In this document: in pieces, positions 1 through 1,804 of the stretch
How the letters are laid out: the number at the start of each line of letters is the position of its first letter
Position numbering within the stretch: the first letter of the stretch is position 1
DNA from: Desulfovirgula sp.
GTDB lineage: Bacteria > Bacillota > Desulfotomaculia > Desulfotomaculales > Nap2-2B
DNA length: 64,000 nucleotides
NCBI GenBank assembly: GCA_020725585.1
Contig: DYES01000007.1
Location: 1 to 64,000, forward strand
Direction of reading: 5' to 3'
Notes under the pieces: generated by a model
Database searches by the model: none
What the model was told of the DNA's origin: nothing
Seen by the model: the letters and a program-made list of their open reading frames with translations, nothing else
Made by a program: the position numbers and the translations under genes

Positions 1-473
1 CCACACTGCAATCCCCGCACTGCCCCGGCTCTCCCGGACAGCCTAGGAGTTTTCCTCCGCGGGTAGCCTTTTCCTAGCCTCTTTTGCAGTAACGGTTTCA
101 GTCGTTGCTTACCGGCCACGGGCCCATGGACCGGCAGCGCTTTTTTCGTAACATCCACCGTTACCACTCAAGGCAGGCTACACTGCACGCAGCTGCCCAC
201 CACATGCAGGTTCACGCCTCAAGCCATAGTCAGCCGCCAAAAAAACGCGGCAATCCCACGAACTTGAGTCTCCACGGGGGCGGGGTCAACGCCCGCATGC
301 CCTTGCAGGTCGCCCCACCCCCTTAACTCCCAGTACCAGCCCCCAACTGGGCGTTGGTAGCCAGCACCAGGAACTTCATCGATGTGCCCTTGACGGATTT
401 TTAGGCCCGTCTTCAGAAAAGGCATCCCCGACTAGGATACTGCATCACTTACCTGAATTTAAATTATTTTTAG
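1..473 (-). ncRNA. ole: Probable OLE (ornate large extremophilic) RNA, 5' portion; runs off the window start
   Basis: About 470 nt GC-rich region without a convincing ORF, immediately downstream of ispA on the same strand, preceded by a strong SigA-type promoter. OLE RNA genes are known to lie next to ispA in extremophilic/anaerobic Firmicutes. No covariance search was possible. Confidence 0.6.
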
Positions 474-479
474 AACGTA

Positions 480-508
480 ATTATAACACAACCCGGCAGT
501 TGAAGCAA
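480..508 (-). promoter_or_regulatory. SigA-type promoter: TTGCTT-17 bp-TATAAT
   Basis: Reverse complement reads TTGCTTCAACTGCCGGGTTGTGTTATAAT; perfect -10 with 17 bp spacer, upstream of the putative OLE RNA. Confidence 0.7.
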
Positions 509-646: not shown

Positions 647-1537
647 TTAAAAATCTCTGGTAACCACGAAGGCGGCCAGCTCGCGTAAAAAGTTTGCCCG
701 GCGGTCGAAATTTGTAAGCGCCTGAACTGCCGCCGCCACCGCCTGGCCTGCTTTTTCTTTTGCTTTTTCCAGTCCAAAAAGAGCGGGGTAGGTGGCCTTT
801 TTATTCTTTTGATCACTGCCCACCGGCTTGCCCAGTTTGGACTGATCGCCTTCCACGTCCAGAATGTCGTCCTTGATCTGGAAAGCCAGGCCCAGGTATT
901 CGGCGTATTCGGTCAAGGAGGAAAGCGTATTTTCGTCTGCACCGGCCAGGATGGCGCCGGAACGCACTGCCGCCCGGTAGAGCGCCCCTGTTTTGCGGCG
1001 GTGGATATACTCCAGGGTGTTCCCGTCCAGGTCCTTGTCCGCGAAAAGAAGATCGGCAACCTGTCCTCCGATCAGTCCTGCCGTTCCGGCGGCATGAGCG
1101 ATTTCAGCAATCACGCGCAGTACGCGGTGGGGATCGGCCGCCCCCTCCTGTACGGTGCGGGTCATCAGCTCAAAGGCCAGGGTAAGCAAGGCGTCTCCCG
1201 CTAAAATAGCCATCGCTTCTCCGTATACCCGGTGGCTGGTTGGCCTGCCGCGACGAAAATCGTCGTTGTCCATGGCCGGCAAGTCATCATGGATTAAGGA
1301 ATAGGTGTGAATGAGTTCGATCGCACAGGCCACCGGCAGGACGCGGAGAGGGTCTTCCCCCACCGCTTCGGCTGCGGCCATGGTCAGGACGGGGCGCAGG
1401 CGCTTTCCGCCGGCAAACACACTGTAACGCATCGCTTCGTGGATAAGCGGAGGGTAATTACTTGCGGAAGGAAGGAAGCGTTCTAGGGCTTCGTCAACGA
1501 TTCCCGCCCGCTTTTTTAATTCGGTGAGGAAATCCAT
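647..1537 (-). CDS. ispA: Polyprenyl synthetase / farnesyl (geranyl) diphosphate synthase
   Basis: LIHDDLPAMDND and FQIKDDILD Asp-rich motifs; GGKRLRP. Confidence 0.95.
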   Translation of the reverse strand: MDFLTELKKRAGIVDEALERFLPSASNYPPLIHEAMRYSVFAGGKRLRPVLTMAAAEAVGEDPLRVLPVACAIELIHTYSLIHDDLPAMDNDDFRRGRPTSHRVYGEAMAILAGDALLTLAFELMTRTVQEGAADPHRVLRVIAEIAHAAGTAGLIGGQVADLLFADKDLDGNTLEYIHRRKTGALYRAAVRSGAILAGADENTLSSLTEYAEYLGLAFQIKDDILDVEGDQSKLGKPVGSDQKNKKATYPALFGLEKAKEKAGQAVAAAVQALTNFDRRANFLRELAAFVVTRDF

Positions 1538-1558: not shown

Positions 1559-1804
1559 TCAACTCTCTGGGTTTAAATCCGGCAGGGAGATTTCTTTACA
1601 GATCAAACCGCCCCCGGCGTCGGCCATTAAAACGGAGATTTTTTGTTCGGCCCTTTCCAGTTGCTGGTGGCAAAATTGCGCCAGGGAGATCCCCTCGCCA
1701 AAAAGTTCCAGGGCCTTATCTAAAGGGAGTTTTCCGTTTTCCAGTTCCCTGACCACCGCTTCCAGCCTGGACAATGCTTCCTCAAAAGTTCGGGTCTGTT
1801 CCAT
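1559..1804 (-). CDS. xseB: Exodeoxyribonuclease VII small subunit
   Basis: [35 protein letters not shown] family signature; 81 aa. Confidence 0.93.

Follow-up and report, generated by a model that had tools for sequence, protein, structure and literature searches.

We analysed a window of 64,000 nucleotides at the start of a 64,802-base contig (C91; DYES01000007.1) from a 2.37 Mb Desulfovirgula sp. genome that is assembled in 92 contigs and was judged 83% complete. Near the contig start, on the minus strand, the window contains xseB, a usual neighbour encoding the exonuclease VII small subunit (1559..1804; PF02609, E 5.6e-21), followed by ispA, which encodes a polyprenyl (farnesyl) diphosphate synthase (647..1537; PF00348 polyprenyl_synt, E 1.4e-65). 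Genes upstream of these include radical-SAM and rtcB, an arrangement shared with G001, a relative of the same genus. Downstream of ispA, on the same strand and after a gap of 183 nt, a noncoding stretch of ∼460 nt reaches window base 1, which is also the first base of the contig. This agrees with the GC-rich non-ORF region of ∼470 nt, continuing beyond the window start, that had been described in the original prediction. The Rfam OLE model (RF01071, gathering score 50 bits) matches positions 464..1 of the minus strand with 355.2 bits (E = 1e-100); the match covers positions 1-459 of the 616 in the model and stops where the contig ends. These 464 nt make up the 5' three quarters of the gene. 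The OLE region has no convincing protein-coding frame; the only open reading frames in it are two short ones that overlap on opposite strands. Besides OLE, the Rfam scan of the whole window, including a permissive search, recovered one tRNA, and a search of a plasmid collection returned short weak similarities, none of which spans the OLE region. One OLE RNA was counted in the source genome and none in 14 control genomes.

The missing part of the gene was found on another contig of the same genome, C68, by querying the genome with the 3' part of the G001 OLE and the G001 OapA. Rfam assigns C68:1-162 to model positions 454-616 (144.3 bits), and this part is 87% identical to the G001 OLE. In reverse complement, C91 ends with the six nucleotides GTGTGG with which C68 begins, and the remainder of ole corresponds to C68:7-162. 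The OLE identity, previously deduced from position and size, is decisively borne out for both halves of the gene by the Rfam model that had been proposed as its test. The joined sequence across the two contigs, GCAGTGTGGACTAAGTGG, is also present in G001, where the ispA-ole-oapA-dxs cluster is intact. The adjacency of C91 and C68 is therefore very likely, as judged from the six-base overlap and from synteny and agreement with G001 rather than from reads. The oapA gene (C68:179-766; 196 residues, TTG start; product 84% identical to G001 OapA) begins 17-28 bases beyond the RNA 3' end and is followed by dxs. The gene for the partner protein had been expected outside the window or elsewhere, and its absence from the window results from the assembly break. 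The gene order is very likely the standard ispA-ole-oapA-dxs, divided by the assembly.

Taken by itself, the window ends at model position 459, as it would if the locus were a decayed or truncated OLE pseudogene whose 3' part, along with oapA, had really been lost at the contig end. We consider this highly improbable: C68 starts with the exact 3' remainder, carrying the partner strand of the P1 helix, followed by oapA and dxs; the P1 pairing spans both contigs; and the conserved core is intact. The apparent absence of OapA from this locus is an assembly artefact, which calls for caution in co-occurrence surveys that use metagenome assemblies. Four of the assemblies (G000, G003, G009 and G013) are broken inside the OLE gene; G003 has OapA and carries an OLE 3' end at a contig start. 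These breaks may perhaps arise from a conserved core common to co-occurring strains, which the four cases hint at.

The joined RNA contains the structural elements of a full-length OLE. In the minimum-energy fold, the P1 5' arm GGUAAGUGAU (444..453, minus strand) pairs with GUCACUUACC at C68:142-151, and the distance from P1 arm to P1 arm is ∼598 nt. Among 58 distinct OLE sequences, many two-sided changes keep the arms paired (for example AAGUGA/UCACUU versus AAAAGGU/ACCUUUU or CGGUGGU/ACCACCG), with the degree of pairing somewhat inflated because the 3' arm was picked from a short stretch as the one that pairs best. P1 was considered as a new feature, Rfam leaving the ends unpaired, and was dropped because the published model already has it (PMC12265935). 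The kink-turn 5' strand (370..383, minus strand) corresponds to nt 83-96 of the H. halodurans RNA, the region of the kink-turn bound by OapC (PMC9723947). The closing strand is disputed between J5/6 (2022 proposal) and J6/7 (2025 cryo-EM model); the 3' strand of the 2022 proposal lies at 319..330 on the minus strand (H. halodurans nt 136-147). Both strands are identical to the RF01071 model. The palindromic GGCC of loop L9.3 is present at 121..124 (minus strand) and corresponds to the RNA-RNA kissing contact of the OLE dimer (PMC12286853). A variable hairpin (window ∼210-262) keeps its pairing in this RNA and in G001 despite altered sequence.

Compared with full-length RF01071 OLE RNAs, the locus falls in the same score class and shares the length of ∼600 nt, P1, the core, the kink-turn bases, L9.3 and the ispA and oapA neighbours. 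Nothing essential differs; the sequence of one variable hairpin is its own, as in other members. The loci of related genomes such as Desulfofundulus, Desulforamulus and G001 have the same gene order and promoter type, with OapA proteins of 53-85% identity, whereas the copy described here is divided by the assembly. Shortened OLE variants have been described (PMC11332333), and the conserved core is common to both types; as the full-length model is matched without large deletions, this RNA is not such a variant. The locus is a further member of the known OLE class, of the ordinary full-length type. The closest relative, JAIMBK010000027.1, which agrees in sequence with the G001 contig, is deposited as an Armatimonadetes bacterium despite an OLE and an OapA of the Desulfotomaculum type of Bacillota.

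The ole gene is preceded by a probable promoter at 480..508 on the minus strand, composed of TTGCTT (508-503), a 17-nt spacer and TATAAT (485-480), with a TG at 488-487 that makes an extended -10 element, TGTTATAAT. The original prediction labelled 1-508 as the gene; the RNA starts near 464, and positions 480-508 belong to the promoter. The TTGCTT-17-TATAAT string given in the original prediction is exact and its extended -10 is conserved in relatives, but the term "strong" overstates the -35 element, which is weak and matches three of six positions. A generic promoter scan does not list the site because it demands four of six at -35. We counted extended -10 elements (TGnTATAAT or three one-letter variants) in 60 distinct ole upstream regions of ∼116 nt from related genomes. 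They occur in 53 of the 60, whereas 200 first-order shuffles gave 1.1 on average and 4 at most, a comparison in which the relatedness of the sequences overstates their independence, while the flanks are otherwise largely diverged. TATAAT alone is found in 48 of the 60 regions versus 7.2 in the shuffles.

In H. halodurans, a single polycistronic RNA reportedly covers the cluster (PMC12265935), and the gene studied here follows ispA on the same strand at a distance of just 183 nt. The ole gene could accordingly be merely a part of the ispA polycistron, with the upstream TATAAT a chance match. The recurrence of the extended -10 in 53 of 60 upstream regions, against about one in shuffled sequence, makes this unlikely, and the element is sometimes present even at ole genes that no longer lie beside ispA. 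Polycistronic transcription and an own promoter can coexist: judging by the conserved element, transcription of ole probably starts at its own extended -10, with read-through from ispA perhaps contributing as well. A literature search of limited coverage found no paper combining OLE RNA, a promoter and ispA.

A genome search for OapA and OapB, suggested with the original prediction, showed that both are encoded. In a hydropathy scan of OapA, residues 7-68 contain strongly hydrophobic stretches, and a weaker one lies near 104-126; at the thresholds used, no OapA family was found in Pfam or NCBIfam. OapB is a 97-residue KOW-type protein encoded between map and infA, and among PDB structures it is closest to OLE-associated protein B (7k9b, E 1.2e-8). 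OapC, of the L7Ae family, was not found in the 83%-complete assembly, and a 4-kb segment of G001 containing the end of rpoC, the L7Ae gene, rpsL, rpsG and part of fusA is likewise unmatched. Since the whole rpoC-fusA neighbourhood is absent as well, and an L7Ae protein is present in 58 of 60 relatives, we read the absence of OapC as an assembly gap. Weak sub-threshold matches to PF01595 (CNNM) fall on the oapA genes of G011, G016, G026, G028, G030, G036, G045, G053 and G057; these similarities lend support to the published kinship of OapA and MpfA.

To our knowledge, OLE is among the largest of the conserved bacterial RNAs to which no biochemical activity has been assigned. The membrane localisation and stress phenotype of OLE are known from papers on H. 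halodurans. The RNA of ∼600 nt is closed by the P1 helix joining its ends. By analogy with this and other published work in other species, it would dimerise through its conserved loops, and OapA, the product of the next gene downstream, would hold it at the membrane. OapB, which is present, and OapC, which is expected in the unassembled segment, would complete the particle, and the particle may help the cell to withstand stresses such as cold, alcohols, Mg2+ and poor carbon sources. A membrane-associated OLE-OapA/B/C complex acting in stress responses is thus the likely role. We are nearly certain of the reading as a whole, namely a full-length OLE RNA gene of an uncultured Bacillota bacterium allied to species of the Desulfotomaculum type, lying across two contigs with an adjacent oapA, probably transcribed from its own promoter and likely to form an OLE-OapA/B/C stress particle.

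Among 60 relatives, OLE was detected in 53 and OapA in 52. Four genomes of a sister genus in the same family (g4: G004, G006, G008 and G010; 92-96% complete) are without ole and oapA, and have only a more distant prenyl synthase instead of a close ispA. G048 is also without ole and oapA, its ispA and dxs lying ∼185 nt apart, whereas its congener G030 has both genes; this arrangement points to a clean joint loss of the two genes in G048. An anticorrelation between OLE and MpfA has been published for Bacillota as a whole. No CNNM/MpfA-type domain was found in the four g4 genomes or in G048 at E <= 0.001, and OLE is present in each of the 17 genomes whose CNNM match passes the cut-off. MpfA therefore does not explain the losses within this order. 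The joint loss of the two genes from one genome, and the families whose ole no longer sits beside oapA, offer clean natural experiments. It is an evenly balanced proposition that throughout the order ole may behave as an autonomous unit with a conserved extended -10, expressible apart from the isoprenoid operon, mobile and duplicable, and prone to disappear jointly with oapA without MpfA taking its place.

Separately, ole is located away from oapA in G014, G039, G047 and G020, and in G039 ispA and oapA are directly adjacent with no ole between them. G029 has two ole genes (C13:45699-46312 and C26:6893-7488): the usual one adjoins oapA, and the second, opposite in strand, lies between rpmA and an obg-side gene.
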